From Clostridia bacterium (lineage in GTDB: Bacteria > Bacillota_A > Clostridia > Oscillospirales > Acutalibacteraceae), in contig JAFSAK010000053.1 of NCBI GenBank assembly GCA_017441045.1, forward strand, positions 1 through 7,881: DNA of 7,881 nt. The letters are read 5' to 3'. Position numbers and translations under genes: made by a program. Each line of letters opens with the position of its first letter. Positions within the stretch are counted from its first letter, which is position 1. This document shows, piece by piece, positions 2,245 through 6,269 of the stretch. The notes beneath the pieces were generated by a model, which was not told the origin of the DNA, searched no databases, and saw only the letters and a list, made by a program, of their open reading frames with translations.

Positions 2245-3495
2245 ATGAGCAAACTAATTATAATCGGCGGCGGAGCCGCAGGTCTTATGGCGGCAATAAG
2301 TGCTGCCAAGGCGGATAATATGGCCGAAATTACGGTTATAGAAAGAAACTCCCGCCCCGCAAGAAAGGTTATGATAACGGGTAAGGGAAGATGTAATGTT
2401 ACGAATAATTGTGATATTGATACCCTTATTTCCAATGTTTCTCATAATGGAAAATTTTTATATTCCGCCTTTAATTCTCTTTCCGCAAAAGATACTTATG
2501 ATATGTTTGAAGAGTGGGGAGTACCCCTCAAAACCGAAAGGGGTAATAGAGTTTTTCCCGTTTCGGATAAAGCGGTAGATATTGTTGACGCCCTTGTAAA
2601 GAACGCAAAGAAAAACTGCAAAATCATAGAAGGCAGAGCCCGAAGTATAGAAGTAAATGATGGAAAAGTTTGCGGCGTTCGTTTGGAAAACGGGGAGTTT
2701 CATAGTGGAGATAGCGTTATTTTAGCAACGGGCGGTATGTCCTATTCGGTAACGGGCTCCAGCGGTGATGGATATAAAATGGCCGAAAACATAGGCCATA
2801 CCGTAACCGATATTAAGCCATCTTTAATTCCCCTTGAGTGTCACGAAGGATTTTGCTCAAGGTTGTCGGGTTTAACTCTTAAAAATGTTGCCCTGTCCGT
2901 ATATGAAGAGGGGAGAAAGAAACCAATTTTTTGCGAAATGGGCGAAATGCTTTTTACCCATTTCGGCATATCGGGGCCTTTGGTGTTAAGCGCATCGGCG
3001 CATATTAAAGATTTTAATAATAAGGCATATAAAGCGGTTATCGATTTAAAACCCGCCTTGACTATGGAACAACTTGATAAGCGAATTTTAAGGGATTTTT
3101 CCGAAGAACTTAATAAGGATTTTTCAAACTCCTTAGATGCGCTTCTTCCAAAAAGTTTAATTCCCATAATTGTTTCCTTATCGGGCATATCACCAAGTGT
3201 AAAGGTTAACCAGATAAGCCGCGAAGAACGGCTTAAACTTGCAGAATTAATTAAGGGTTTTACCCTTAAAATAACGGGGACAAGACCTATTGATGAAGCA
3301 ATTATAACAAGGGGCGGTATCCCCATTAAAGAAATTAATTCATCAACTATGGAATCAAAACTTGTAGATGGCCTTTATTTTGCAGGTGAAATTATAGATG
3401 TAGATGCCTATACGGGCGGATTTAATCTGCAGATCGCCTTTTCTACGGGATACCTTGCGGGTAAAAATTCAGTTTTAAGAGGAGAAAATATATGA
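2245..3495 (+). CDS. HI0933/BaiN-type NAD(P)/FAD-dependent oxidoreductase (flavoprotein)
   Basis: I place the start at ATG 2245 (416 residues), not at the in-frame ATG at 2227. AAGGCGGTG (2231-2239) is well spaced only for 2245, and the resulting MSKLIIIGGGAAGL start puts the dinucleotide fold right at the N-terminus. The FAD ADP-binding motif is GGGAAG (8-13), with the acidic end of beta-2 in VIERN (31-35). The family signature ARKVMITGKGRCNVTN is at 39-54, and the C-terminal FAD contact region YFAGEIIDVDAYTGG is at about 378-392, followed by FNLQIAFSTG. These match the HI0933-like family (TIGR00275), which includes proteins annotated as BaiN or aminoacetone oxidase; the physiological substrate of most members is unknown. 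The length is normal for the family. The protein is cytosolic, with no signal peptide. Its stop overlaps the cmk start in ATGA, so it is the first gene of a coupled operon. The family is sure, the substrate is not. Confidence 0.92.
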   Translation: MSKLIIIGGGAAGLMAAISAAKADNMAEITVIERNSRPARKVMITGKGRCNVTNNCDIDTLISNVSHNGKFLYSAFNSLSAKDTYDMFEEWGVPLKTERGNRVFPVSDKAVDIVDALVKNAKKNCKIIEGRARSIEVNDGKVCGVRLENGEFHSGDSVILATGGMSYSVTGSSGDGYKMAENIGHTVTDIKPSLIPLECHEGFCSRLSGLTLKNVALSVYEEGRKKPIFCEMGEMLFTHFGISGPLVLSASAHIKDFNNKAYKAVIDLKPALTMEQLDKRILRDFSEELNKDFSNSLDALLPKSLIPIIVSLSGISPSVKVNQISREERLKLAELIKGFTLKITGTRPIDEAIITRGGIPIKEINSSTMESKLVDGLYFAGEIIDVDAYTGGFNLQIAFSTGYLAGKNSVLRGENI

Positions 3496-4163
3496 TTTCT
3501 GTTGCTATTGACGGGCCTGCCGGTGCAGGTAAAAGTACAATTGCTAAAACCGTTTCAAAGAAACTTGGTTTTATATATGTTGATACGGGCGCACTTTACA
3601 GAACCATCGGCCTTAAATTTATGAACGAGGGTTACGATGAGGATTTAAATTGTGATATTGGCAAAATCCTTGAAGGCACCAAGGTCGATATTAAATTCAT
3701 TAACGGTGAGCAAAGGGTATTTTTGAACGGTGAAGATGTATCCGAACTTATCCGCACCCCTAAAGCATCATTAATGGCTTCTGCGGTTTCTGCAAAACCT
3801 GAGGTTAGAGCGTTTTTACTCGAAATGCAGCGCCGACTGGCAAGAGAAAATAATGTTATTATGGATGGCAGAGATATAGGCACAGTTGTCCTTCCCGATG
3901 CAACAGTTAAAATCTTTCTGACCGCTTCTGCCGAAGAAAGAGCAAAACGCAGATATAAAGAACTGACCGCAAAGGGTATGGAAGTTAATTATGATGAAGT
4001 CCTTGCCGATATCGAAAAAAGGGATTATAACGATTCTCATAGAGAAATTGCTCCCTTAAAACCCGCAGAGGATTCGGTACTTGCAGATACTTCAAAATGC
4101 GATTTGGAGCAGTCGGTAGATTTGATTCTTTCCATAATTAATGAAAGGTTAGATAATAAGTGA
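3492..4163 (+). CDS. cmk: Cytidylate kinase (CMP/dCMP kinase)
   Basis: This 223-residue enzyme transfers phosphate from ATP to CMP or dCMP in pyrimidine salvage and nucleotide supply, in the cytosol. The P-loop GPAGAGKST is at 8-16. The NMP-binding region begins with VDTGALYR (30-37). MDGRDIGTVV (124-133) is the conserved CMP-contacting segment, RRYKEL (153-158) belongs to the lid, and RDYNDSHREIAPLKPA (177-192) with DSVLADTS (194-201) is the typical C-terminal signature. Length is normal for the bacterial family. The ATG overlaps the flavoprotein stop by 4 nt and is served by AGGAG (3480-3484), 7 nt upstream. The stop overlaps the GTG start of the ispH fusion (GTGA). The cmk-then-S1 order is a known conserved neighbourhood in many bacteria, which supports the assignment. 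Confidence 0.97.
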   Translation: MISVAIDGPAGAGKSTIAKTVSKKLGFIYVDTGALYRTIGLKFMNEGYDEDLNCDIGKILEGTKVDIKFINGEQRVFLNGEDVSELIRTPKASLMASAVSAKPEVRAFLLEMQRRLARENNVIMDGRDIGTVVLPDATVKIFLTASAEERAKRRYKELTAKGMEVNYDEVLADIEKRDYNDSHREIAPLKPAEDSVLADTSKCDLEQSVDLILSIINERLDNK

Positions 4164-6232
4164 AAATAACATTAGCCAAAACCGCGGGCTTTTGCTTTGG
4201 TGTAAACCGAGCGGTGCAAATGGTTTACGATTTGGTGGATGAGGGAAAAAAGGTTTGTTCTTTAGGTCCCATTATTCATAATAGCCAGATGGTAGAAGAA
4301 TTGGCTGAAAAGGGCGTAAAAATCGTTGATGCGCCCGAAGAGGCGGAGAAGGATAGTATCCTTGTTATCCGTTCTCACGGAGTTGATTTGGCTACCTATG
4401 AAAGAGCCGAAAAATCGGGAGTGGCAGTTGCAGATGCCACCTGTCCCTTTGTTGCCAAAATCCATAAAATCGTTGCCGAAGAAAGCGAAAAAGGCAATTT
4501 GATTTTTATTGCAGGCGATAAAAATCATCAAGAAGTTATGGGTATTGTTGGCCATAGCAAAGGTGAAACCATCGTGTTTTCTTCTGAGGAAGAACTGGAA
4601 AAACTCGTGGTGGATAACCCCGAAATTCTAAAAAAACAGGTTTCTGCCGTTGCTCAAACCACTTTTAACGCAAAAAAGTGGGAAAAAGTTCAAAAAAAAT
4701 TAAAAAAACTCTATACAAACCCAAAAATTTTTGATACAATATGTAATGCTACTTCGATGCGTCAAAGTGAAGCAAGAACCCTTGCCGAGAGTAATGATGT
4801 TATGATTGTTATAGGCGGCAGGCATAGTTCTAACACTTCAAAACTTTTTGATGTGTGCGCTTCTCTTTGCGAAAAAACATATCTTATAGAAACTGCGAAG
4901 GAACTTGATTTTTCTTGGTTTTCTGATTGTGAAAAAATCGGAGTGGTTGCAGGCGCATCTACGCCCGCAGGTATAATTAAGGAGGTTATTAGAACCATGT
5001 CGGAAAATTTACAACCGGTTGAAGAACAGGTGGAGGTAAAAGAACCTGTTCAGAAAAGCTTCGAGGAAATGACAGATGAAGAAGCTTTTGAAGCATCGCT
5101 CAGCAATTTAACAGGCGATCAAAAGGTAAGCGGAACTGTACTTGCAGTTAACGCTACCGAAATACAAGTTGATATTGGAAGAGGTCTTGCAGGATATATT
5201 TCTGCTGATGAATATTCCCTCGATCCCAATGTTGATCTTGTAAAGGAAGTTAAGGTCGGAGATACTCTTGATCTTATCATTATGAAGATAAACGATCAGG
5301 AAGGAACCGCAATGCTTTCAAAGCGCCGTTATGATGCTATCGCCGGTTGGGATAAGATAGTAGCCGCTAAAGATTCTGCTGAAGTGTTAACAGGCGTAGT
5401 TAAGGATGTAGTTAAGGGCGGCGTAGTTGTTTATTCAAATAATATTCGCATATTTATCCCTGCTTCTCAGGCAACTGCTTCCAGAAATGAAGCTCTTGAA
5501 GATCTTAAGGGTAAGGAAGTTTCCTTCCGCATTATCGAAATTGGCAGAGGCCGTAAGGCAGTAGGCTCTGTTCGCAGTGTTCTCCGTGAAGAGCGCAAGG
5601 CAGCAGAAGCTAAGATTTGGGAATCCATCGCTGTTGGTGACCGTTTCACAGGCGTTGTTAAATCCCTTACCACTTATGGCGCATTCGTCGATATCGGCGG
5701 CGTTGATGGTATGGTACATATATCTGAACTCTCTTGGCAGAGAATTAAGAATCCCGCAGAGATTCTCGCAGTTGGCGATACTGTAGATGTATATGTTAAG
5801 GATCTTGATACCGAGAAGAAGAAAATTTCTCTCGGATATAAGAAAGAAGAGGATAATCCTTGGAATATCTTCACCTCTAACTATAATGTTGATGATGTTG
5901 TTACCGTTAAGGTAGTTAGCATCACTTCTTACGGTGCATTTGCACGTATAGTTCCCGGTGTTGATGGCCTTATCCATATTTCTCAGATTGCTAAAAAGCA
6001 TATTGCTAAGCCCCAGGATGAACTTAGCGTTGGCGATGAAATCGAGGTTAAGATTATTGCCGTTGATGCAGATAAAAAGCGCGTAAGTCTTTCAAGAAGC
6101 GTTCTTCTTCCCGATGAAGCTCCCGAAGAAGCAGCAGAGGTTGAAGAAGTTGTAGAAGAAGTTCCCGTAGAGGAAACAGCACCTGCAATAGAAGAAGCAG
6201 CCCCCGAAGTAACCGAAGAGGCGGCAGAATAA
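4160..6232 (+). CDS. ispH-rpsA: Bifunctional fusion: IspH (HMBPP reductase) - ribosomal protein S1
   Basis: This is a 690-residue, in-frame fusion without an internal stop. Residues 1-280 are IspH/LytB, the [4Fe-4S] enzyme that reduces HMBPP to IPP and DMAPP in the last MEP step. Cluster ligands are C12 (AGFCFGV), C95 (ATCPFV) and C195 (FDTIC); substrate residues H40, H73, H123, E125, T167/T168, the SSN at 223-225 and S267 are present, so it should be active. Residues 281-320 are an acidic linker. Four S1 (OB-fold) RNA-binding domains follow at about 322-390, 407-475, 491-560 and 577-646; the last two are the most canonical (YGAFVDIGGVDGMVHISEL). A Glu/Ala-rich tail covers 651-690. The GTG start overlaps the cmk stop and has only a weak AAAGG (4144-4148) 11 nt upstream. 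Such fusions are known in Clostridia. The codon bias change and the strong internal start at 4997 are odd and may give a separate S1. Confidence 0.96.
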   Translation: MKITLAKTAGFCFGVNRAVQMVYDLVDEGKKVCSLGPIIHNSQMVEELAEKGVKIVDAPEEAEKDSILVIRSHGVDLATYERAEKSGVAVADATCPFVAKIHKIVAEESEKGNLIFIAGDKNHQEVMGIVGHSKGETIVFSSEEELEKLVVDNPEILKKQVSAVAQTTFNAKKWEKVQKKLKKLYTNPKIFDTICNATSMRQSEARTLAESNDVMIVIGGRHSSNTSKLFDVCASLCEKTYLIETAKELDFSWFSDCEKIGVVAGASTPAGIIKEVIRTMSENLQPVEEQVEVKEPVQKSFEEMTDEEAFEASLSNLTGDQKVSGTVLAVNATEIQVDIGRGLAGYISADEYSLDPNVDLVKEVKVGDTLDLIIMKINDQEGTAMLSKRRYDAIAGWDKIVAAKDSAEVLTGVVKDVVKGGVVVYSNNIRIFIPASQATASRNEALEDLKGKEVSFRIIEIGRGRKAVGSVRSVLREERKAAEAKIWESIAVGDRFTGVVKSLTTYGAFVDIGGVDGMVHISELSWQRIKNPAEILAVGDTVDVYVKDLDTEKKKISLGYKKEEDNPWNIFTSNYNVDDVVTVKVVSITSYGAFARIVPGVDGLIHISQIAKKHIAKPQDELSVGDEIEVKIIAVDADKKRVSLSRSVLLPDEAPEEAAEVEEVVEEVPVEETAPAIEEAAPEVTEEAAE
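4712..4740 (+). promoter_or_regulatory. Possible internal promoter within the ispH part
   Basis: TATACA (4712-4717) and TACAAT (4735-4740) are 17 nt apart, with an extended -10 TG at 4732-4733 and A-rich sequence just upstream (4683-4708). It could start a shorter transcript carrying only S1. The -10 overlaps codons of the conserved FDTIC motif, so the match may simply reflect protein constraint and AT richness. Confidence 0.28.
4978..4999 (+). promoter_or_regulatory. Internal Shine-Dalgarno and in-frame ATG for a free S1 protein
   Basis: TAAGGAGGT (4978-4986) is a nine-base perfect match to the anti-Shine-Dalgarno complement. The ATG at 4997-4999 follows 11 nt after GGAGG and is in frame (Met280 of the fusion). 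A product starting here would begin MSENLQPVEEQ and have 411 residues with all four S1 domains and the acidic tail, which is normal size for a Gram-positive S1. The site is far stronger than the one serving the upstream GTG. Activity is inferred, not shown. Confidence 0.6.
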
Positions 6233-6240
6233 AATTATTA

Positions 6241-6269
6241 AAACCCTTCACAAATTGTGAAGGGTTTTT
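6241..6269 (+). terminator. Rho-independent terminator after ispH-rpsA
   Basis: AAACCCTTCAC (6241-6251) pairs perfectly with GTGAAGGGTTT (6257-6267) around an AAATT loop, and two more A-U pairs could close the loop further. The right arm ends in a five-T tract (6265-6269), with more Ts at 6273-6277. It closes the operon 8 nt after the fusion stop codon. Confidence 0.93.

Follow-up and report, generated by a model that had tools for sequence, protein, structure and literature searches.

A single reading frame in the window (the whole stretch of 7,881 nucleotides that we analysed) joins IspH, a metabolic Fe-S enzyme, to S1, an abundant ribosomal protein. Is the joined protein the only product, or does the gene also yield an ordinary S1? 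Proteins of this type, known as IspH-RPS1, were described and purified by Rao et al. 2015 (PMC4746011), and IspH activity was demonstrated for the C. thermocellum protein. According to the main text of that paper, organisms with IspH-RPS1 have no other ispH or rps1 genes, and a ribosome-linked sensor role was proposed for the fusion. This published reading ties the S1 of these organisms to IspH. The main text of PMC4746011 does not contain the terms start codon, Shine-Dalgarno, internal, or operon; as in the annotation, one polypeptide is described there, and a second start for free S1 goes unmentioned. A literature search that covered few subscription papers found no report of a second start in IspH-RPS1. 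Within their accessible text, PMC12605070 contains "IspH-RPS1" once, the matches in PMC6495232 and PMC8336468 concerned other proteins, and the main texts of PMC8407422, PMC10684804, and PMC6260860 mention neither rpsA nor ispH.

From the comparisons below, we think it highly likely that this one gene has two products, the IspH-S1 fusion and a free S1. Ribosomes that start at the GTG, which overlaps the stop codon of cmk, would make the fusion, which would supply the cell with IspH. Ribosomes loading at a Shine-Dalgarno sequence at the IspH/S1 border would instead start at an internal ATG and make an ordinary four-repeat S1, which would probably be the larger share of the S1 pool. The embedded site would be the S1 gene's own ribosome binding site, lying within the last codons of ispH and retained there because the ispH and S1 genes overlap. 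Where the two genes overlap in the same frame and ispH lacks a stop codon, ispH would read through into S1. More broadly, it is very probable that the fusion and a normal S1 on its own are both produced in many anaerobic bacteria. If so, the annotation as a "bifunctional protein" conceals the ordinary S1 of a large anaerobic group, and there is no longer a mismatch between an enzyme of metabolism and an abundant protein of the ribosome. We infer initiation at the internal ATG, the ratio of the two products, and any function of the fusion as such from the sequences.

The IspH-S1 gene and the site within it

Table 1. Features of the cmk-ispH-S1 region, in window positions.
Feature	Position	Strand	Evidence or remark
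cmk, cytidylate kinase	3492..4163	+	stop overlaps fusion start by four bases
AAAGG, weak Shine-Dalgarno for fusion GTG, 11 nt upstream	4144..4148	+	pairing -3.8 kcal/mol
IspH-S1 fusion frame, 690 aa, GTG start	4160..6232	+	ORF and profile/domain matches
TAAGGAGGT, Shine-Dalgarno in last ispH codons (ATT AAG GAG GTT)	4978..4986	+	sequence, pairing, conservation
Internal in-frame ATG (Met280), proposed S1 start	4997..4999	+	sequence and conservation
Proposed free S1, 411 aa, four S1 repeats	4997..6232	+	domain matches; initiation predicted
Terminator-like hairpin 3' of S1, 13 pairs then T-rich tail	6240..6268	+	consensus scan only

The window protein belongs to the IspH-RPS1 fusions (NF000907; PMC4746011). 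It matches NF000907, the "bifunctional" IspH/S1 family, at 704 bits (the cut-off is 624), and a domain search found LYTB at residues 3-280 and then four S1 stretches in the same frame. The whole fusion has a mass of 75.3 kDa. The initial annotation had claimed a four-domain S1 of 411 residues beginning at the internal ATG, and this is what we found (44.8 kDa, with all four S1 stretches). In PMC4746011, a 46 kDa protein that was purified along with C. thermocellum IspH-RPS1 expressed from genomic DNA was identified as E. coli Rho, at 69% coverage; a free S1 would have a similar mass. The 411-aa product resembles the stand-alone four-repeat S1 proteins of NF005208, with an alignment that is nearly complete (9-364 of the 391 profile positions), yet it is not filed as NF005208 because its score is just under the cut-off (360.4 vs. 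368 bits). Elsewhere in the window, positions 1021-1632 encode a protein that has a DnaJ domain, weak matches to TPR, and a tail rich in Cys, adjoining a DUF5685 protein at 198-1037.

Fusions of this kind are widespread: 235 of the 299 genomes sampled from the phylum of the nearest relative exceed the NF000907 cut-off. In all 35 of the genomes of fused relatives (the window's genome was not among them), the fusion is the sole match to NF005208 at 1e-30, and none of the eight genomes of fused relatives that we searched for another frame with several S1 matches has one. Among seven unfused genomes, two (G251 and G121) have a second, weaker match to NF005208 that lies below the cut-off.

The nine-base Shine-Dalgarno and the in-frame ATG are indeed located at the IspH/S1 border, and the fusion's GTG has just AAAGG upstream, as first annotated. 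The window thus has a Shine-Dalgarno and a start codon inside a longer frame. The nine-mer TAAGGAGGT is unique on both strands of the window, and neither AAGGAGG nor AGGAGG has a further copy on either strand. Pairing energies favour the claim that the internal site should be the stronger of the two: the predicted energy of pairing with the 16S tail is -12.3 kcal/mol for the internal ATG and -3.8 kcal/mol for the fusion's GTG, and the next best of the fusion's 25 in-frame start codons pairs at -8.5 kcal/mol.

It had also been argued that the codons within the site look chosen to build it, since AAG is used for 6 of the 29 Lys and GAG for 6 of the 27 Glu in the IspH half. The counts are right, but the argument is weak when it stands alone: when the IspH half was shuffled synonymously 20,000 times, with no change to the protein or its codon usage, 4.7% of the shuffles contained AAGGAGG and 2.3% the exact nine-mer. 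By itself, the motif in the window is only marginally unusual and is weak evidence. We judge it to be non-random because of the comparison with relatives, not because of the window alone.

The spacing in the window is ten bases from the nine-mer to the ATG, or 11 bases after GGAGG. At AGGAGG sites of other ORFs in these loci, the spacing is 6-10 in 34 of 45 cases and 11 in just one, and 9 is the most common. A spacing of 11 nt is long for a Shine-Dalgarno, which counts against strong internal initiation. We considered it as a fault and dropped that view, since 11 lies between the spacings of 9 and 13 that are seen in relatives whose S1 is out of frame (see below).

In-frame internal starts that give a shorter C-terminal product are well known. 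Examples are the long and short forms of CheA, the forms of IF2 from infB, C and Nu3 of phage lambda, and Cas8 and Cas11. As in those genes, there would be one frame with two starts, the second with its own Shine-Dalgarno, and the short product would be a complete functional part. What differs is that the two proteins joined here, a metabolic Fe-S enzyme and a ribosomal protein, have no relation to each other, and that most of the sampled genomes of a phylum have this pair. It is this spread, and the unlikeness of the two products, that makes the IspH-S1 case notable.

Conservation of the site in fused relatives

We compared three sets of loci. Among the window and the best 80 of 178 relatives (L001-L080), AAG GAG and ATG are at identical codons in 81 of 81 loci, which extend down to about 50% protein identity. 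The class-wide set drew on 110 of the 262 genomes with a match (30 by score and 80 by hand among the matches listed, with 15 of the 80 hand-picked loci chosen for a short frame). With this set included, all 171 fused loci have GAG-G with an in-frame ATG, at a spacing of 11 in 167 loci and of 8 in the other four. The phylum-level set added 70 of 289 genomes (30 by score and 40 by hand), of which 69 were fused. At this level, GGAGG and an in-frame ATG are present in 236 of 240 fused loci, at a spacing of 11 in 224 and of 8 in 12. Because loci were selected by score or by hand, the shares of fused and unfused loci in these samples are not estimates. Four loci that repeat genes already included (L081-L084) were left out of the counts; some relatives are cut by contig ends, and L041, which has one in-frame stop, was still counted.

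The 240 fused loci have 237 distinct junctions. The start codon at the junction is ATG in 239 of them and GTG in one, and it lies in a linker where the residues beside it vary. The four exceptions to the usual arrangement are all variations on it. L257 has GAGGGGG with the ATG in place (pairing at -11.9 kcal/mol), and L259 has the motif with GTG as the start. In L260, the usual codons do not form the motif, and the motif and ATG have jointly shifted downstream by nine bases. L263, which does not have the usual peptide, carries AGGAGGT read in a different register (as ACA GGA GGT) and, at a spacing of 13, an in-frame ATG. In L260 and L263, the putative RNA signal is retained where the peptide is not.

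Named records have the same arrangement. In both Pusillibacter faecalis (whose gene is annotated solely as a bifunctional protein) and Subdoligranulum variabile, the motif and ATG are present at a spacing of 11. The record for Fusobacterium vincentii, which belongs to another phylum, has an 831-aa frame of the same kind. Its strongest in-frame start (AAGGGGG, spacing 9, -10.2 kcal/mol) is at the same border, with a different peptide; this gene has no clear shift in codon usage. The records for F. vincentii (L265) and Acetoanaerobium noterae (L268) come from a plasmid collection, although at 2.1 and 2.6 Mb, and with ispH in both, they look like chromosomes that were labelled as plasmids.

The initial annotation had proposed to ask whether the motif is conserved beyond the constraint on the protein. 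Of 267 alignable columns in IspH, just three have a single codon for the commonest residue: Glu275 (GAG in 169/169), Lys274 (AAG in 152/152), and Thr186 (ACA in 84/84). (These counts are 171 and 154 for Glu and Lys elsewhere, as two rows of the alignment are out of register.) Thr186, at codon 4715-4717, is Thr in only half of the rows, which may be close kin. Other Lys columns favour AAA in 33 of 35 cases, and other Glu columns favour GAA in 24 of 28. The residue at the Lys position varies (163 Lys, 68 Glu, 3 Arg, and 2 Gly among 236 loci), but the codon there is always AAG, GAG, AGG, or GGG, followed by GAG (236/236). So, the changes among these four residues keep the pairing motif. Our tree requires at least 11 changes of residue at this position among the fused and overlapping genes. 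(The tree has 130 rows, namely the window, 19 of L001-L080, and all 110 of L085-L194; it was built with a quick method, excludes the last ten residues, and is unrooted.) The putative signal is conserved beyond what the protein needs, and the motif is kept in fused relatives even where the amino acid differs. Loss of the Shine-Dalgarno in close relatives with the same amino acids, which the initial annotation had named as an outcome that would refute it, was therefore not what we observed in the fused genes.

Relatives in which S1 is out of frame

Nine unfused relatives (L092, L096, L104, L109, L116-L119, and L121) have an S1 frame that is out of register with ispH; it begins inside the 3' end of that gene and is preceded by the same motif. 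No fusion is possible in these relatives because S1 is out of frame and ispH ends at its own stop codon. The motif is GAG GAG G in eight of them and AAG GAG G in L117. As in the window, the motif is embedded in ispH and S1 starts in the 3' end of that gene; unlike in the fusions, S1 is in another frame, and the spacing is 9 (seven relatives), 10 (L116), or 13 (L117) instead of 11 or 8. In the tree, these relatives fall on at least two lineages. They strongly support the view that S1 would start at the embedded site.

As a control, we considered IspH genes without an overlapping S1 start, two of which (L268 and L269) were taken from named records. The motif is absent from 12 of these 14 genes, which is the other side of the test of conservation. 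Among the frames listed within 400 bases of ten control genes, none was S1-like and had a ribosome binding site. In L115, S1 lies 44 bases further on and has a site of its own, and in L254, a stop codon separates IspH from S1. The two controls with the motif, which count against our reading, are L126, which has CAG GAG GTC without an overlapping S1 start, and L269, from the Geosporobacter ferrireducens plasmid NZ_CP017270.1. The ispH of L269 (2486-3346, next to a plasmid cmk) has the motif, the ATG, a short tail, and a stop codon, and it looks like a fusion that has lost its S1 part. Another control, L131 (1575-3110, reverse strand), is a fusion of IspH with cytidylate kinase (LYTB at 19-294, Cytidylate_kin at 303-510) and has no Shine-Dalgarno, so the motif is not tied to IspH fusions as such.

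Predicted expression of the two proposed products and other explanations

The initial annotation had predicted little fusion and much free S1. We compared the two starts in 166 of the 171 fused loci. In 164 of the 166, pairing is more favourable at the internal site than at the fusion start (medians of -12.6 vs. -7.7), although 47 of the 166 have an upstream site that is strong too (-9 or better). The internal and fusion starts scarcely differ in predicted accessibility (0.53 vs. 0.45).

Codon usage also differs between the two halves. The mean fraction of AAG among Lys codons is 0.57 in S1 halves and 0.31 in IspH halves (higher in S1 in 147 of 171 loci and lower in 23). For TTC among Phe codons, the means are 0.41 and 0.17 (140 loci higher, 29 lower). 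There was no shift for GAG among Glu codons (0.34 in S1, 0.37 in IspH). When codons from 240 loci are binned by position, Ile ATC/(ATC+ATA) rises from 0.28 to 0.52 at the ATG, and Phe TTC rises from 0.17 to 0.37 there. For Lys, AAG is at 0.18-0.45 in the bins of IspH, 0.30 in the first bin of S1, and 0.48-0.59 for codons 30 to 389, so the rise comes only after codon 30 and not at the ATG. Across 77 loci, AAG averages 0.45 for cmk, 0.29 for ispH, and 0.66 for S1; because cmk exceeds ispH, part of the Lys contrast reflects a low value for ispH. Codon bias could also have causes other than expression. Overall, the prediction is only partly supported: the pairing energies and the shifts for Lys, Phe, and Ile agree with an excess of free S1, while the strong upstream sites, the lack of a shift for Glu, and the long spacing do not.

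How else might these patterns be explained? Perhaps only the full fusion is made, every S1 bears an IspH domain on the ribosome as a sensor, and the internal motif is incidental. The fusion's spread across the phylum (235 of 299 genomes over the NF000907 cut-off) and the retention of the frame fit with this, and the full protein can be produced in E. coli and is active, as reported in the main text of PMC4746011. We nevertheless consider it very unlikely: an incidental motif would not survive changes of residue or be rebuilt elsewhere together with its ATG, and it would not serve as the S1 start in the out-of-frame relatives. Pairing with the anti-Shine-Dalgarno has been linked to ribosome pausing, and the motif sits between two domains, where it might slow elongating ribosomes and aid the folding of IspH without being a start. 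We give this idea even less credence, as pausing needs no ATG, yet a start codon is present at a fixed spacing (ATG in 239 of 240 loci, GTG in one), and the ATG moves along with the motif in L260 and L263. That the codons are dictated by the C-terminal peptide of IspH alone is almost certainly wrong. Conservation of this peptide is high (in 171 loci, Ile 0.98, Lys 0.88, Glu 0.98, and Val 0.89), but other synonymous codons are not used there in any of 236 loci, and L129 (AAG GAA GTA) and L131 (AAA GAA GTA) encode the same KEV without the motif, which already contradicts this explanation.

Alternatively, free S1 might come from a separate transcript, with a promoter inside ispH, and the internal site would be its ordinary ribosome binding site. 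There is a promoter-like match with an extended -10 at 4712-4740 (9/12), but such matches are near the number expected by chance (11 found vs. a mean of 7.1 in shuffled sequences, standard deviation 3.0), and we think that such a promoter is improbable. If present, it would supplement the internal start, not replace it.

If both the fusion and free S1 are made, then why is the frame kept? This is compatible with the fusion having its own function, but it is no proof. We rejected the kept frame as proof of selection because a spacing of 8 is also in frame and is within the common range, yet it is used by only 12 of 240 loci. A more elaborate possibility is that the frame is under selection and that a fixed minority of ribosomes bears S1 in the form linked to the Fe-S enzyme. 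The internal site would determine how much plain S1 there is relative to S1 with IspH, S1 itself might repress that site, and translation would thus sense the state of iron, oxygen, or isoprenoids. We view this as speculative and rather unlikely. If free S1 is made, the fusion's own function could be tested by removing single starts. Bearing on selection for the frame, 236 of 240 fused loci have one of the two in-frame spacings, 8 or 11, although a spacing of 9, the most common at other AGGAGG sites nearby and the one in seven of the nine out-of-frame relatives, would break the frame.
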